64,000 nt of DNA from an uncultured Fulvivirga sp. GTDB lineage: Bacteria > Bacteroidota > Bacteroidia > Cytophagales > Cyclobacteriaceae. The stretch is taken from positions 30,058-94,057 of the forward strand of contig CANMSE010000007.1 of the NCBI GenBank assembly GCA_947500555.1. Reading direction: 5' to 3'. The position numbers were made by a program, and so were the translations under genes. The notes beneath the pieces are model-generated. The model was given only the letters and a program-made list of their open reading frames with translations, was not told the origin of the DNA and ran no database searches. This document shows, one piece after another, positions 15,710-49,374 of this stretch. Within the stretch, counting starts at the first letter, position 1; each line of letters opens with the position of its first letter.

Positions 15710-16381
15710 ATGAAACTAATTTTTATTACCACACTATTTTTGATATCAAATTCACTTTACTCTAATGATTTGACTAATCATGAGCTAGAAATAAAAAGGT
15801 ATGAAAAAGATGTAGAAATTATTCACGATAGTTACAAATCTCTGAATCTAAATTCTTTGGAAAAAGAGTATGATAGCTTCATTGATGCAGTACAAGCTTA
15901 CGAGAAGAATCAAACAGAGTCTAACTTCGAACATCTGGAAAAGATAGCTCAAAAAATAAAATTCTTTGACACCCTTAAAAGAGAAGAGGAATTGAATAAG
16001 GAAATCACTAGTTCTAAATATTTTGATCTTTCAGCAAAAGTATTTCAGTATAAAAATAGAGTTGATAATTTATATATTCAGGAAAGAGGTTCCGGGTCTT
16101 TTTATGGTGGTATGGAAACCCATTCGAATAGTGTAATTCAAAAAAAGAAACTATACGTGGCTGGTATGGAAGCATTTGAAAAAACCATGCTTGAAGTAAA
16201 ACATACCAATCCTTGTAATTACAGTCAGAGAATAGATTTACTAAAAGAGAACAAGCGCTTATTGGTTAAAATGGAGAAGTTGCTAAATGTTAGTAATACA
16301 AAAGAACTGGAGAAGCAGCTGAAAAATGAAAAAGAGTCAAAAAAAATAATGGAACTTATATTCAATTATCCAGTTAATTGA
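15710..16381 (+). CDS. Hypothetical secreted coiled-coil-like protein
   Basis: 223-aa ORF with signal peptide-like N-terminus; no family recognised. Confidence 0.5.
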   Translation: MKLIFITTLFLISNSLYSNDLTNHELEIKRYEKDVEIIHDSYKSLNLNSLEKEYDSFIDAVQAYEKNQTESNFEHLEKIAQKIKFFDTLKREEELNKEITSSKYFDLSAKVFQYKNRVDNLYIQERGSGSFYGGMETHSNSVIQKKKLYVAGMEAFEKTMLEVKHTNPCNYSQRIDLLKENKRLLVKMEKLLNVSNTKELEKQLKNEKESKKIMELIFNYPVN

Positions 16382-16397
16382 TAATCTTTGTTCAACG

Positions 16398-16481
16398 ATG
16401 AAAATTTTTAGTAGCACATATAACCATCATTACCATCATCATGTTAAACACTTGATGCATGGGAGTTATATGTTTAAATAG
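16398..16481 (+). CDS. hisL: His operon leader peptide MKIFSSTYNHHYHHHVKHLMHGSYMFK
   Basis: 27-aa ORF with 7 His codons (HHYHHHVKHLMH) followed by an intrinsic terminator and hisG. Confidence 0.88.
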   Translation: MKIFSSTYNHHYHHHVKHLMHGSYMFK

Positions 16482-16503
16482 AAAATAATATCTAATCATA
16501 AAC

Positions 16504-16537
16504 AAAAAGGCTTGTCATGCGACAAGCCTTTTTTTAT
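16504..16537 (+). terminator. His attenuator terminator hairpin
   Basis: AAAAAGGCTTGTC-ATGC-GACAAGCCTTTTT perfect 13-bp stem, 4-nt loop, T tract, 21 nt before hisG ATG. Confidence 0.92.
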
Positions 16538-16557: not shown

Positions 16558-17418
16558 ATGACACAAAAATTAAAGATCGCTATTCAAAAATCAGGACGAC
16601 TACAGGAACAATCCATTAAACTTCTTAGAGAATGTGGATTTTCTTTCAGTGGAGGCTTCAGCAAACTCAAAGCAGAGGTAGATAATTTCCCTGCCGAAAT
16701 ACTTTTTCTAAGGGATGACGATATTCCTCAGTACATTGAGGATAACGTTGCTGATATTGGAATAATAGGTGAGAATGTATTTATAGAAAAGCAGAAAGCA
16801 GGCGATCTCATATTGAAACTCGGTTTTGCTAAATGTCGCTTATCTATAGCCATTCCAAAATCAGAAGAATATAATGACTCTTCAACTTTGAATAACAAAA
16901 AAATAGCAACCTCTTACCCCATCATCGTACAGGAATTTTTGAATAAAGAAGGGGTCAATGCAGAGATTCACGAGATTAGCGGCTCTGTAGAAATAGCTCC
17001 CGGAATTGGCCTGGCTGACGCAGTTTGTGACATCGTAAGCACTGGGAGTACATTACTCACGAATGGACTAAAAGAAGTAGAGACTATACTGAAGTCCGAG
17101 GCTATATTAATTGCAAGTAAAAACCTGGAAAGCGAAAAGCAGGAACTTTTAGATCAATTAGTTTTTCGCATAAATGCAGTTAATGCAGCTAAAAACAATA
17201 AGTACTTATTATTAAACGCACCTAATGATGCCATTGAGGAAATTACTAAAGTGCTACCTGGTATGAAAAGCCCAACTGTAACTCCACTCCAAGAAGAAGG
17301 TTGGTCATCTCTACACTCTGTGGTTAACGAAAACGACTTCTGGCAAAAAATTGATGAATTAAAATCTCTTGGTGCTCAAGGCATTTTAGTTATACCCATT
17401 GAAAAAATGATATTGTAA
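16558..17418 (+). CDS. hisG: ATP phosphoribosyltransferase
   Basis: KIAIQKSGRLQEQSIKLLRECGF; VCDIVSTGSTLLTNGL; first gene of his operon. Confidence 0.97.
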   Translation: MTQKLKIAIQKSGRLQEQSIKLLRECGFSFSGGFSKLKAEVDNFPAEILFLRDDDIPQYIEDNVADIGIIGENVFIEKQKAGDLILKLGFAKCRLSIAIPKSEEYNDSSTLNNKKIATSYPIIVQEFLNKEGVNAEIHEISGSVEIAPGIGLADAVCDIVSTGSTLLTNGLKEVETILKSEAILIASKNLESEKQELLDQLVFRINAVNAAKNNKYLLLNAPNDAIEEITKVLPGMKSPTVTPLQEEGWSSLHSVVNENDFWQKIDELKSLGAQGILVIPIEKMIL

Positions 17419-18707
17419 TGGAAATAATCAAAAATATTGAGCTGTCAGCTGTGGACAGCATACTAAAGCGACCTGGATTAGAAAATGATTACCTTGAGGG
17501 AGCAGTCAAAAATATTATACAAAGAGTCAAAACTTCTGGCGATGAAGCACTTATCGATTTTACAAGTCAATTTGATAAAGTTGATCTGAACGAATTGCAG
17601 GTTTCAGAAACTGAAATAACAACGGCTATTGGTCAGGTAAGTGAAAATCTTAAAAATGCAATTACTCAAGCCAAGCAAAATATTGAAGCCTTTCATAAAA
17701 GTCAAAAAAGAGAAACGGTAAAAATTGAAAATCAACCTGGAGTTACCTGCTGGAGAAAATCAGTGCCTATTCAAAAGGTTGGGCTGTACATACCCGGAGG
17801 TACAGCGCCTCTTTTTTCAACAGTTCTAATGCTGGGCATACCGGCCGTAATTGCAGGGTGCAAGGAGATTGTAATGTGCTCCCCACCTAACTCAGAAGGG
17901 AAAATTGATCCTGCTATCCTCTTCACGGCCAACTTGGTCGGTATAAAGAAAATATACAAGGTAGGTGGGGCTCAATCCATAGCAGCCATGGCTTATGGAA
18001 CCGCCTCTATTCCGAAAGTTGATAAAATATTTGGCCCTGGAAATCAGTATGTGACTAAAGCCAAGCAGTTGGTTAACATGGAAGGCGTATCCATTGATAT
18101 GCCTGCGGGACCATCTGAAGTAGCCGTTATAGCAGATGATATTGCTGAACCATCTTTCATCGCAGCAGACCTACTCTCTCAAGCTGAACATGGTGTTGAT
18201 AGTCAGGTTATTTTAATCAGCTCATCCGAAAACTTAGTAACAGAAGTACTGAACGCTATAGATACTCAAATAGAGCAGCTTCCAAGAAAAGACATAGCAT
18301 TGGAATGTCTTAAAAATAGTAAGGCTGTAATTACTAAAAGTCTGGAAGAAGCAACAGATGTATCAAACAGTTATGCCCCAGAACATCTTATTATTAATTG
18401 TAAAAATGCGTCTTCAATAGCTGAGAACATTACGCAAGCAGGTTCTGTATTCATAGGAGCCTACACTCCCGAATCAGCAGGAGATTATGCTTCCGGAACT
18501 AATCATACACTACCAACCAATGGTGCAGCTCGAGCATATAGTGGAGTATCCCTCGACTCATTCGTAAAAGAAATAACCTTCCAAGAAATTACAGAAGAGG
18601 GTATTACTAAATTAGGGCCTGTGGTGGAAACAATGGCTGAAGCAGAGCAACTAATTGCACATAAAAAAGCTGTCTCTATAAGACTTCAAAAACTCAACGA
18701 GCAATGA
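17418..18707 (+). CDS. hisD: Histidinol dehydrogenase
   Basis: GLYIPGGTAPLFSTVLMLGIPA, KIFGPGNQYVTKAKQ, PAGPSEVAVIAD. Confidence 0.98.
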   Translation: MEIIKNIELSAVDSILKRPGLENDYLEGAVKNIIQRVKTSGDEALIDFTSQFDKVDLNELQVSETEITTAIGQVSENLKNAITQAKQNIEAFHKSQKRETVKIENQPGVTCWRKSVPIQKVGLYIPGGTAPLFSTVLMLGIPAVIAGCKEIVMCSPPNSEGKIDPAILFTANLVGIKKIYKVGGAQSIAAMAYGTASIPKVDKIFGPGNQYVTKAKQLVNMEGVSIDMPAGPSEVAVIADDIAEPSFIAADLLSQAEHGVDSQVILISSSENLVTEVLNAIDTQIEQLPRKDIALECLKNSKAVITKSLEEATDVSNSYAPEHLIINCKNASSIAENITQAGSVFIGAYTPESAGDYASGTNHTLPTNGAARAYSGVSLDSFVKEITFQEITEEGITKLGPVVETMAEAEQLIAHKKAVSIRLQKLNEQ

Positions 18708-19738
18708 ATATTGATCAATTCGTTCGACCAAACATACTTGAGATGAAGCCTTATTCTTCTGCCAGAGATGAATATAACTCAATGGATGATGTTTCATTGC
18801 TGGATGCCAACGAAAATCCGTTTGAAACAGATCTAAATAGGTACCCAGACCCCTATCAGAAAGATCTGAAAAATCTCATTGGTAAAGTAAAGTCTATTGC
18901 TCCGGAAAACATCTTTTTAGGTAACGGAAGTGATGAGGCCATTGATTTGATATTACGGATTTTTTGTGAACCATTAGAAGATAGCATTATCATTCCAGAT
19001 CCAACTTATGGAATGTATCAGGTGTCTGCAGCTATACAGAATGTAGAGGTAAAGAAAGTGGCGTTGAATAAAATTTTTGAGTTGGATGTACAAAGTATAT
19101 TAGAGTTAAACAGGACATCCGGAAAGGTTCTGTTTCTTTGTAACCCTAATAATCCATCTGGGAATTTCTTTTCAAGAAATGATGTGATTAGTCTATTGAA
19201 TCAGTTCAATGGTATTGTAGTGATAGATGAAGCATACATAGATTTCACAAAGGAGGAGTCGTTTATTGTTGAGATTGAAAATTATCCGAACCTGATAGTT
19301 CTTCAGACTTTTTCAAAAGCGTGGGGCATGGCTGGATTAAGGTTGGGAATGGCTTTCACCAACAATTCAATAATCAAACTCTTTAATAAAGTGAAAGCTC
19401 CTTACAATCTTTCGAGTCTTACTCAAAAAACCGCGCTAGCTGAAATAGAAAAAGGGGTCGATCAATTATTCAACACAGTCAATAATCTTATCAGCGAGCG
19501 AAAAAGGCTGGAAAAAAGCTTTAATGAAATGAATTGTGTCGTTAATATGTTTCCGTCTGAAACGAATTTTTTATTAGTCAAATTTCGAGACTACAAAAAA
19601 GCATATAATGCTTTAGAAAAAAATGGTCTAATTGTGAGGGACAGATCTAAAGCGCTTCATTGTGAGGGATGTTTGAGATTGACTGTGGGAACAAGGAAAG
19701 AAAATGATCAGGTTATTGAGACGTTAAAAGCATTATGA
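18704..19738 (+). CDS. hisC: Histidinol-phosphate aminotransferase
   Basis: [49 protein letters not shown]. Confidence 0.97.
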
Positions 19739-20832
19739 AAAAAGTATTATTTATAGATAGGGACGGCACCATCATCTTAGAACCGGAAGACGAGCAAATA
19801 GACAGTCTGGAAAAACTTGAGTTTTACCCTGCTATCTTCAGGTGGCTTGGTTCTATTTGTCAGGAACTTGATTATGAACTAGTTATGGTTACCAATCAAG
19901 ATGGATTAGGAACCGATTCTTTTCCGGAGAACACCTTCTGGCCTGCACATAATAAAATGATGGATGCCCTTAAAAAAGAAGGGATTGAGTTCTCTGAGGT
20001 TCTTATTGATAGATCATTTCCAGCCGACAATTCACCAAATAGAAAGCCCGGTACCGGATTGTTGCAGCAGTACATTCAAGGTGATTATGATCTTGCCAAC
20101 TCTTATGTGATTGGAGACCGGAAAACAGATATTGAGCTGGCAAAAAATCTAGGTGCAAAAGGGGTTTTAATAAATGATGGTTCAATAGAATTAAATGACT
20201 TGGAAGCTAATTGCTCATTAATAACTACTGATTGGGAGACCATATATAACCACTTAAGAAAAAGGGAATCGACCGTAAAAAGGAAAACGAATGAGACTGA
20301 CATTGAGATTAGTCTGAATCTAGACGGCACAGGACAAAGTGATATATCTACTGGTTTAGACTTTTTTGATCACATGCTTGACCAATTGGCTAAGCATGGT
20401 TTGGTAGATCTTACAATCAAAGTAAAAGGAGACCTTGAGGTTGATGAACATCATACCATCGAAGATACTGCTATCGCATTGGGTGAAGCTTTTTTAGCAG
20501 CTCTAGGAGACAAAAGAGGAATTTCAAGATATGGATTCCTTTTACCTATGGACGATTGTTTAGCTCAAGTTGCTATCGACTTTGGAGGACGCAATTGGAT
20601 TGTATGGGAGGCTGAGTTCAAGAGAGAAATGATTGGAAAAATGCCAACGGAAATGTTTTTTCATTTCTTCAAATCATTTTCAGATGCTTCAAAAAGCAAC
20701 CTTAATATTAAAGTTGAGGGAACTAACGAGCATCATAAAATTGAAGCTATTTTCAAAGCATTTGCAAGAGCGATACGAATGGCAGTAAAAAGAGATGGCA
20801 ATCAGCTACCAAGTACTAAAGGAGTTATATGA
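19735..20832 (+). CDS. hisB: Bifunctional histidinol-phosphatase / imidazoleglycerol-phosphate dehydratase
   Basis: FIDRDGTII...[20 protein letters not shown] and [18 protein letters not shown]...[17 protein letters not shown]. Confidence 0.97.
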
Positions 20833-21410
20833 GAGTAGCTATCATAAAGTACAATGCCGGAAATACTCAGTCCGTGATCTTTGCTTTGAATCGCCTTGGT
20901 ATTGATCCAATATTGACCAATGATTTTGAAGAATTAAAGTCTGCAGATAAAGTGATCTTCCCAGGTGTTGGTGAAGCCAGTACCACTATGACGCATCTCA
21001 AGAATTTGAAACTTGATAAACTTATACCCAACCTGAGACAGCCAGTTTTAGGTGTATGTTTGGGGATGCAACTGATGTGCAAACATTCTGAAGAAGGAAA
21101 CACTGACTGTCTTGGTATTTTTGATACGCAAGTAAAACTTTTTAAATCCAAAGTAGATAAAGTGCCACACATGGGATGGAATGACCTGGTGTTATCACAG
21201 AATGTATTAAATAAAAAGATCGAGGATACTCATATGTATTTCGTTCATAGTTATTATGTACCTATCATAAAGGAAACTACCGCTACAGCTAATTATATTC
21301 ATGATTTCTCTGCATCCTTACAGCAAGACAATTTCTGCGCGGTGCAGTTTCACCCCGAAAAGTCTGGAAAGCAAGGTCTGCAGCTATTAAAAAATTTTAT
21401 TGAACTATGA
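20829..21410 (+). CDS. hisH: Imidazole glycerol phosphate synthase, glutaminase subunit
   Basis: [47 protein letters not shown]. Confidence 0.97.
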
Positions 21411-22123
21411 GAGTAATACCTGCTATAGATATCATCGATGGACAATGCGTGCGCCTTTCTCAAGGAGATTATAATGAGAAGACTGTTTATGAAAAAGATC
21501 CATTAGCAGTCGCCAAGAGGTTTGAGGCATCAGGTATAAAACGACTACATCTGGTAGACCTGGATGGAGCAAAAGCAGGTAGTATTGTAAATCATCAAGT
21601 GTTGGAATCAATCGCCAGCAATACAAATTTATCTATTGACTTTGGAGGTGGTGTAAAATCCGATGATGATATCAAAATGGCTTTCGATTATGGTGCAAAG
21701 CAAGTTACATGCGGAAGTATTGCCGTCAAAAATAGGGATCTGGTTCTTAACTGGGTAGCAACATATGGCCCTGATAAGTTGATTTTAGGAGCGGATGTGA
21801 AGAATAAAATGGTTGCTATTCACGGTTGGACAAAAACCAGTGATCTATATCTTGATGAGCTTCTCAAAGATTATTTAGCGGCAGGATTAAAATATGTGAT
21901 TTGCACAGATATAGCCACTGACGGTATGCTGACAGGACCAAATTTCAATCTCTACAAGGAATTATTGATCAATTTTCCAATGATGAAATTAATAGCTAGT
22001 GGCGGAGTTAGCTCAAATGATGACCTACTAAGACTAAAGAGCGATGGTTTGCATGGAGCGATAGTTGGTAAAGCTCTTTATGAAAATAGAATCTCTCTTG
22101 ATGAATTAGAACAGTATGCTTAA
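21407..22123 (+). CDS. hisA: ProFAR isomerase
   Basis: [52 protein letters not shown]. Confidence 0.97.
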
Positions 22124-22868
22124 AAAAAGAATTATCCCATGTCTTGACATCAAAGATGGAAGAACAGTCAAAGGAGTAAACTTCATAAACATCAGAGACG
22201 CTGGCGATCCAGTAGAGCTTGCTCAAAGCTATGCAAAACTAGGAGCTGACGAATTAGTATTTTTGGACATTACAGCGACTCATGATAATAGAAAAACTTT
22301 TGTCAAGCTGGTAAAAGACATTGCTAAGCATATTGACATTCCATTTACAGTTGGAGGTGGAATAAGTTCAGTTGATGATGTCAAACCTCTGCTGGAAGGT
22401 GGGGCAGACAAGATCTCAGTCAATTCTTCAGCAGTGAAAAGGCCTGAGCTAATCAATGAACTTGTTCTTGCTTTTGGGAGTCAGTGTATAACCGTGGCCA
22501 TTGATGCTAAATTCATTGATGGTGAATGGGTCGTTCACACGCATGGTGGGAGAAAGCCTACCAATAAAAAATTGTTTGACTGGGCAAAAGAAGTTGAGAA
22601 GCGCGGTGCCGGAGAGATTTTATTTACTAGTATGGATCATGACGGCACCAAGCAAGGGTTCGCCAATGAGGCATTGGCTAAGTTGAGCGATCTCATATCT
22701 ATTCCAATTATTGCTTCGGGTGGTGCCGGTAACGAATCCCACTTTAAAGAAGTATTCACAGACGGAAAAGCTGATGCAGCATTGGCGGCAAGTATTTTTC
22801 ATTTTGGAGAAATTCCCATACCCACATTAAAAGATTATTTAAAAAAGGAAAATATAGCTATAAGATGA
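22116..22868 (+). CDS. hisF: Imidazole glycerol phosphate synthase, cyclase subunit
   Basis: [45 protein letters not shown]. Confidence 0.98.
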
Positions 22869-23452
22869 CAGAATCACCAAACTTTGAAAAGGGTCTTATA
22901 CCTGCCATTATTCAAGATTATTATACTAAAAAAGTACTTATGCTTGGCTATATGAATAAGGCAGCCTATGACCAAACGGTACGGTCTGATAAGGTTACTT
23001 TTTTCAGTAGGTCAAAAAACAGACTTTGGACTAAGGGAGAAACTTCCGGCCACTATCTTAATGTCAAATCAATAGACCTTGATTGTGATCTGGACACCAT
23101 ATTGATTCAAGCGACTCCTGAAGGTCCAACTTGTCACACAGGCACCGATACTTGTTTTGGAAATATGAGTAACACATCGACTGACTTGGGGTTTTTAGAG
23201 GCTACAATTCAACATAGAAAGCAAAACCCAAAAGAAGGGTCTTATACAAATGAGCTGCTTGCTAATCTTAACAAGGCTGCACAAAAGGTCGGTGAAGAAG
23301 CAGTGGAGTTGGTAATTGAAGCCAAAGATAATAATGAAGAGTTATTTCTGAATGAAGGAGCTGACCTGATTTACCATTACATAGTGCTACTGGCAGCTAA
23401 GGGATATAAATTACAAGATGTTATTGAGGTGTTGAAAAATCGTCATCAATAA
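22865..23452 (+). CDS. hisI: Bifunctional phosphoribosyl-AMP cyclohydrolase / phosphoribosyl-ATP pyrophosphatase
   Basis: [13 protein letters not shown]...[20 protein letters not shown] and [34 protein letters not shown] (hisIE fusion). Confidence 0.97.
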
Positions 23453-45330: not shown

Positions 45331-45352
45331 TCGTCTCTTAAAATCAAGTCAT

Positions 45353-45385
45353 AAAAAAAGCTCGCTGAGAACAGCGAGCTTTTTT
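45353..45385 (-). terminator. Trp attenuator terminator hairpin
   Basis: Minus strand AAAAAAGCTCGCTG-TTCT-CAGCGAGCTTTTTTT, perfect 14-bp stem including A/T flanks, T tract, then trpE. Confidence 0.93.
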
Positions 45386-45418
45386 ATTTCTATATGGTTT
45401 ACATATAACAGTGCTGTT

Positions 45419-45472
45419 CTATCCTTTTGGAAAGTACCACCACCAAGCGCTATATGTATTTATCGTTTTCAT
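45419..45472 (-). CDS. trpL: Trp operon leader peptide MKTINTYSAWWWYFPKG
   Basis: 17-aa ORF with three consecutive TGG codons before attenuator and trpE. Confidence 0.92.
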   Translation of the reverse strand: MKTINTYSAWWWYFPKG

Positions 45473-45477
45473 TGGTT

Positions 45478-45485
45478 CAAATATA
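45478..45485 (-). promoter_or_regulatory. Bacteroidota -7 element TATATTTG upstream of trp leader
   Basis: TAnnTTTG match, 5 nt before the leader ATG. Confidence 0.55.
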
Positions 45486-45535
45486 GAATCCGATGTGATA
45501 TAAAAAAATATATCGAATTAAAAAGATTGAAAAAA

Positions 45536-49202: not shown

Positions 49203-49210
49203 TACCTTTG
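49203..49210 (+). promoter_or_regulatory. -7 element TACCTTTG of SRP RNA gene
   Basis: Exact TAnnTTTG just before the predicted RNA 5' end. Confidence 0.55.
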
Positions 49211-49213
49211 CAC

Positions 49214-49308
49214 AGGCAAATCAGTACGACCAGCTCCTGCTGAACTCCCCCAGGACCGGAAGGTAGCAAGGGTAGGCGGTTGTAGCGGTGCGATACTTGA
49301 TTTGCCTT
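49214..49308 (+). ncRNA. ffs: Signal recognition particle RNA, small bacterial type (4.5S)
   Basis: AGGCAAATCA...CCCCCAGGACCGGAAGGTAGCAAGGGTAGGCGG...TGATTTGCCT; closing helix plus conserved SRP domain IV, followed by T tract. Confidence 0.95.
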
Positions 49309-49374
49309 TTTTTGTTTTATAATTCAGTGAATTATCTTAGCACAAATCTTTTAACCACTACCTAACAAAATTCT

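Follow-up and report, generated by a model that had tools for sequence, protein, structure and literature searches.

Known amino-acid leaders and their relation to the Fulvivirga locus

In enterobacteria, the his operon is preceded by an attenuator (Rfam His_leader, RF00514) in which a leader peptide rich in His codons lies upstream of hisG and an antiterminator competes with an intrinsic terminator. Outside the Proteobacteria, His leader peptides have been described in Bacilli before hisZ and hisS (Naville and Gautheret, 2010; PMC2965389), and in the Bacteroidetes the Bacteroid-trp leader is catalogued in Rfam (RF01692; Weinberg, 2010; PMC2864571). For Flavobacterium psychrophilum, a transcriptome article reports that a structured, transcribed 5' element precedes hisG; this element has no Rfam match and is shared among the Flavobacteriaceae. 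The article also describes strong clues for leader-peptide attenuation ahead of amino-acid operons (PMC9723704). In a study of his genes across the Bacteroidota superphylum, attenuation comes up for enterobacteria only (PMC8305728).

The locus analyzed here lies upstream of hisG in an uncultured Fulvivirga sp., in a window of 64,000 nucleotides, which is the whole stretch of DNA that was studied. It shares with RF00514 the His-codon leader peptide, the opposition of antiterminator and intrinsic terminator, the position before hisG and the same inferred mechanism, but in the window Tyr, Val and Lys codons stand between the control codons, and a candidate promoter abuts the ORF. The search with the Rfam His_leader model that the original prediction had suggested returned 28.5 bits, below the cut-off of 49. 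No recognizable sequence homology to the enterobacterial leader was found; the original prediction had described the peptide as unrelated in sequence to enterobacterial HisL. The Bacteroid-trp model likewise remained below its cut-off (33.2 bits, cut-off 49), with the terminator arm AAAAGGCUUGUC as the best-shared part, and membership in either family was rejected. A scan of 20 related his leader loci from across the phylum identified no Rfam family at cut-off. The Bacilli leaders resemble the locus in combining a His-codon leader peptide with a premature terminator outside the Proteobacteria, but they belong to Firmicutes and precede other genes. The F. psychrophilum element agrees in gene and phylum; the main text of that article gives neither a sequence nor a mechanism for hisG, and the element probably belongs to the leader family described below.

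A catalogued leader of the same design is found within the window itself:

45340-45492, minus strand: trp leader before trpE (RF01692 match at 45373-45492, 52.7 bits), the sole copy in the genome

Its leader ORF MKTINTYSAWWWYFPKG is located at 45472-45419 (minus strand) with a TATATTTG box 5 nt upstream of the ATG, and AGAACAGC can pair with GCTGTTCT of the terminator. Bacteroid-trp leaders and the his leader thus have the phylum, a -7 box beside the ATG, control codons, an antiterminator at the ORF end and a terminator in common, and differ in that Trp codons are used in the former and His codons in the latter. As a separate observation, the window contains an ordinary Bacteroidales small SRP RNA at 49207-49311 (plus strand; RF04183, 84.8 bits).

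The leader ORF and the his operon

The coding part of the locus comprises the following features:

16398-16481, plus strand: His leader ORF, 27 codons followed by TAG, with His codons that are conserved in relatives
16425-16460, plus strand: His control codons (codons 10, 11, 13, 14, 15, 18 and 21)
16558-17418, plus strand: hisG, first gene of the operon (TIGR00070 and TIGR03455 above cut-off)
17418-23452, plus strand: hisD, hisC, hisB, hisH, hisA, hisF and hisIE, contiguous or overlapping, each scoring above its NCBIfam cut-off

The leader ORF extends from the ATG at 16398-16400 to the TAG at 16479-16481 and encodes MKIFSSTYNHHYHHHVKHLMHGSYMFK, with seven His codons within 12 residues. The range of 16398-16537, the peptide length and the His count had all been given correctly in the original prediction, and hisG follows the leader and its terminator as stated there, with its ATG at 16558. 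The operon order is hisGDCBHAF-IE, without gaps from the hisG ATG to position 23452, and the HisG protein is 84% identical to that of Fulvivirga lutimaris, the nearest named relative found.

Both strands taken together, the window contains 1102 ATG-initiated ORFs of 8-45 aa; the runner-up among them reached four His in 12 residues, as compared with seven in the leader. When the 300 nt preceding hisG were dinucleotide-shuffled 5000 times, the maximum was five. The His-rich leader ORF is far above chance, and a short ORF rich in codons for the pathway's end product is situated directly upstream of the biosynthetic operon.

Conservation across the Bacteroidota

DNA upstream of hisG was collected from relatives in the genus, the family, the order and the phylum, and an ATG ORF with at least four His in 12 residues was counted as a His-rich leader. 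A His-rich leader was present in 233 of 288 distinct Bacteroidota hisG upstream regions and was followed by a terminator in 163 of these 233; these counts treat relatives individually, although they are non-independent samples, and the terminator count uses a looser detection than a first classifier. The absence of a terminator according to that first classifier proved wrong at several loci, whose terminators the detector had missed. The comparison of hisG upstream regions proposed with the original prediction therefore revealed His-codon runs and terminators that are conserved in relatives. In a subset of 212 of the regions, leaders with at least four His in 12 residues occurred in 167 (0 on the reverse strand, 0.6 in shuffled sequences) and leaders with at least five in 130 (0 and 0.0, respectively), and no other amino acid tested in the same way in these 212 regions was comparable to His. 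The named genera carrying a His leader include Chitinophaga, Niastella, Puia, Flavihumibacter, Foetidibacter and Chryseosolibacter. In one member of the same genus (L006 in genome G003) the leader has shrunk to MKIGNNILNHHHTVFV, in which no more than three His codons are left, and the terminator is retained; this is possibly a case of decaying control.

Outside the His codons the peptide diverges, and amino-acid changes outnumber silent changes in most comparisons between congeners; this retention of His codons in a drifting peptide is expected of a codon sensor, in which it is the codons and the RNA, not the peptide, that matter. Clusters of His can bind metals, and the small ORF might accordingly encode a functional, for example metal-binding, His-rich peptide whose place before hisG reflects co-transcription only. 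Conserved start and stop codons in relatives would fit such a product, but the excess of amino-acid over silent changes around His codons that stay in place, and the wide variation of leader length and sequence across genera, leave this explanation with a close to negligible probability. An RNA that itself binds histidine or a protein, as a riboswitch or protein-binding leader, would equally account for a structured leader ahead of a biosynthetic operon. However, the conserved part consists of His codons whose third bases are mixed, both CAT and CAC being used, and no Rfam riboswitch or T-box was detected at cut-off, so that we see next to no chance for this reading either.

A model, R1, was built from 42 Cytophagales-type leaders to represent the proposed Bacteroidota his leader family. 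It scores the window locus, which belongs to its training set, at 113.9 bits. In the genome, R1 found one good copy, the one at hisG, and three more matches at 33-42 bits. One extra match corresponds to the reverse strand of the same his terminator, and one at 33.5 bits spans the second half of the model only. A match at C2 (34.6 bits) was considered as a second genomic his leader and rejected, since it turned out to be an ordinary terminator downstream of an accC-like gene.

Terminator, antiterminator and the predicted fold switch

The locus contains three RNA elements:

16504-16536, plus strand: intrinsic terminator with U tract, 13-bp stem and 4-nt loop, of which 16509-16520 doubles as antiterminator partner
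16457-16467, plus strand: antiterminator 5' segment GCAUGGGAGUU, from the last part of the leader ORF, predicted to pair with 16509-16520
16416-16473, plus strand: predicted protector hairpin, the fold of the nascent RNA without a ribosome, which hides the antiterminator 5' segment

The hairpin of 13 bp followed by a T tract that had been predicted is present at 16504-16533, with five G-C pairs in its stem and a T-rich tail, and places an intrinsic terminator between the leader ORF and the first gene. Its stem is maintained in relatives by changes on both sides. Weak, sub-cut-off matches to the Rfam sRNAs BTnc231 and BTnc060 on both strands of the terminator were dismissed as terminator similarity. 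In the antiterminator, which was absent from the original prediction, 16457-16467 would pair with 16509-16520, a stretch that takes in 5' arm and loop sequence of the terminator. Arms at 16436-16452 and 16464-16482, transferred from the Bacteroid-trp alignment as a region 1:2 pairing, had a fold probability of 0.00 and were replaced by the protector at 16416-16473.

To simulate the switch, the RNA was folded as it would exist just before the 3' arm of the terminator is made, and pairs under the ribosome were forbidden. The footprint was a fixed assumption, namely the A-site codon plus 14 nt, with an upstream edge set some 17 nt ahead of the stop codon; these sizes follow general knowledge of bacterial ribosomes. 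In the simulated fold of the window, 10.1 antiterminator pairs are expected with the A site on His codons 10-15, 2.3 with the A site on His 18 and none at His 21, while the expectation is 0.01 with the ribosome at the stop codon. Without a ribosome it is also 0.01, because the protector hairpin forms. Under a broader definition, which counts pairing upstream of the terminator arm, the window retains about four expected pairs at the stop codon as compared with ten in the stalled state. Of 500 shuffles of the window segment, 11 reached as many pairs as the stalled state.

Across 143 loci, the simulated means were 9.4 pairs in the stalled state, 3.6 at the stop codon and 5.1 without a ribosome; stalled and stop states differed by at least three pairs at 114 loci and the order was reversed at none, with the simulated switch being just partial at 92. 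Stalled pairing dropped from 9.7 to 6.2 in a shuffle control. For 124 loci, the duplex between the leader end and the terminator 5' arm had a mean energy of -13.6 kcal/mol (-8.2 kcal/mol when shuffled), with p ≤ 0.05 in 83%. When the antiterminator segment of the window was exchanged for that of a congener, pairing was about equally good (p 0.46), because the genus shares one version of the antiterminator; within its own genus, the specificity of the antiterminator therefore rests on the shuffles and on the wider family.

In this wider family, the alignment of the 42 Cytophagales-type leaders provided evidence from covariation. Six core antiterminator pairs were formed in 214 of 252 cells, and permutation of partners among species yielded a mean of 199.8 cells and reached 214 once in 5000 permutations. 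At one of these pairs, 16 sequences have A-U and 15 have G-C. Different sequences follow the same logic elsewhere: in Chitinophaga and relatives GGUAAGC pairs with GCUUACC, and in a large family with leaders like MISIQLHHHHLHYCSQAMC, probably the Flavobacteriaceae, the antiterminator is formed by CUCAAGCG and CGUUUGAG. Taken together, prediction and covariation point to an antiterminator that excludes the terminator and depends on the position of the ribosome.

Promoter and translation start

One further feature precedes the leader ORF:

16382-16390, plus strand: candidate -7 box for the Bacteroidota sigma-ABfr (TAATCTTTG), 7 nt upstream of the leader ATG

The -7 consensus has been given as TAnnTTTG (PMC7366714), and TAATCTTTG is the sole match to TAn(2-3)TTTG within 60 nt upstream of the leader; a -33 TTTG element was not recognized upstream of the window leader. 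Among 164 leaders, a -7 box was located 4-11 nt upstream of the ATG in 58 occurrences, with further peaks at 15-20 and 33-37 nt before the ATG, as compared with a background of 24 occurrences in the 140 nt upstream of the same loci. Since the box sits around position -7 (PMC7366714), many leader transcripts should begin at the AUG or no more than a few nt away from it. For the window, the position of the box predicts that transcription starts on the leader ATG or very few nt from it, and its placement 4-11 nt from the start codon in many species suggests near-leaderless mRNAs. Such transcripts are rare in the phylum: about 3.7% of mRNAs have 5' ends under 10 nt in Bacteroides thetaiotaomicron (PMC7366714), and 5.5% are leaderless in F. 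psychrophilum (PMC9723704).

A 223-aa ORF (15710-16381, plus strand) is located directly upstream of the leader, with its 3' end touching the candidate -7 box; it matched no NCBIfam model at E 1e-20. As this same-strand ORF ends only 16 nt ahead of the leader, the terminator might merely end the upstream gene, with hisG having its own promoter and the His-rich ORF being incidental. Such a coincidence would be highly improbable in view of the 167 of 212 hisG upstream regions that carry a His-rich ORF, where 0.6 would be expected, of the covariation in the antiterminator and of the candidate -7 box between the upstream gene and the leader.

Relatives without a terminator

In 41 relatives, which include some sister genera, the His codons run into a UUCCUC-stop-GAGGAA hairpin that carries the leader stop codon in its loop, and no U-tract terminator is found. 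In most of these leaders, a conserved ACAUAUCGCCC and a covarying GGCUG/CAGCC hairpin come next, and the peptides end in HHSS-stop (L039, L040, L178 of Marivirga arenosa, L253, L274, L278 and 35 others). Of 16 genomes searched with a model of this leader type, 14 had a single copy each, located before hisG; the 64-kb window had no match. Several of the loci (among them L268, L274 and L278) share a conserved AAACGTATATTGCATnCATG within about 20 nt upstream of hisG, which may act as an additional promoter that escapes attenuation or as a signal for translation. In another family (L113-L117), the last His codons form a stem (e.g., CATCGCC...GGCGAT) directly before the leader stop codon, and no terminator was seen. 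A programmed +1 frameshift through the stop-codon hairpin was considered and rejected: the +1 frame is open in some species, and inspection by eye found the register to ACAUAUCGCCC not conserved.

For the terminator-less device, Rho-dependent or translational control are the obvious candidates, and these relatives show that the His sensor can be wired to a different output. By extension, the leader in the window could also act via translation or Rho-dependent termination and not via the intrinsic terminator. This is very unlikely, as such a mode needs no terminator or antiterminator structure, whereas the window and its genus carry a strong terminator together with a covarying antiterminator.

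A wider picture can be proposed, in which the Bacteroidota possess a phylum-wide family of his attenuators that Rfam lacks. Its ORFs would often be translated from mRNAs that are leaderless or nearly so, and one branch (the 41 loci including M. arenosa) would have been rebuilt without a terminator and would control hisG by a non-intrinsic, Rho-dependent or translational route. Taken as a whole, this picture is tentative, with slightly less than even odds of being right in all its parts.

A proposed model for his operon attenuation

Sequence, conservation, covariation and the predicted ribosome-dependent fold argue that the element in the window controls the his operon as a ribosome-mediated transcription attenuator, with a probability of roughly 0.93. 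Leader translation, its coupling to transcription and the response to His-tRNA are inferred. In this model, RNA polymerase would transcribe the leader ORF with a ribosome close behind. With ample His-tRNA, the ribosome would get to the stop codon and cover the ORF end, so that 16457-16467 is not free, the terminator at 16504-16533 folds and transcription stops before hisG. With scarce His-tRNA, the ribosome would stall on His codons 10-15 and leave the ORF end free to pair with the terminator 5' arm and loop (16509-16520), by which the terminator would be blocked and hisGDCBHAF-IE transcribed. If no ribosome were present, the protector hairpin would mask the antiterminator segment and termination would be the default.

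The classical ribosome-mediated attenuation proposed in the original prediction is thus supported by conservation, a covarying antiterminator, the predicted switch and a drifting peptide; its presentation as a layout known from enterobacteria needs to be amended, given the Bacteroidetes trp leader in Rfam and the structured hisG 5' element in Flavobacteriaceae. With a similar trp leader already catalogued for the phylum and a hisG element reported, the novelty of the finding is moderate. The his leader is widespread and uncatalogued, with no Rfam family, and Bacteroidetes his leaders may have been mentioned earlier beyond the freely accessible main texts that the literature search covered.

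Implications for the Bacteroidota

With this leader, the his operon of much of the phylum joins the genes under ribosome-mediated attenuation, and a ready-made family becomes available for annotation. The Bacteroidota have unusual promoters and make little use of Shine-Dalgarno sequences. As an attenuator of this type needs a ribosome that keeps up with RNA polymerase in the leader, its spread implies local coupling of transcription and translation in the Bacteroidota. Finally, the loss of the terminator in related species that kept the sensor offers a natural comparison of one sensor with different outputs.
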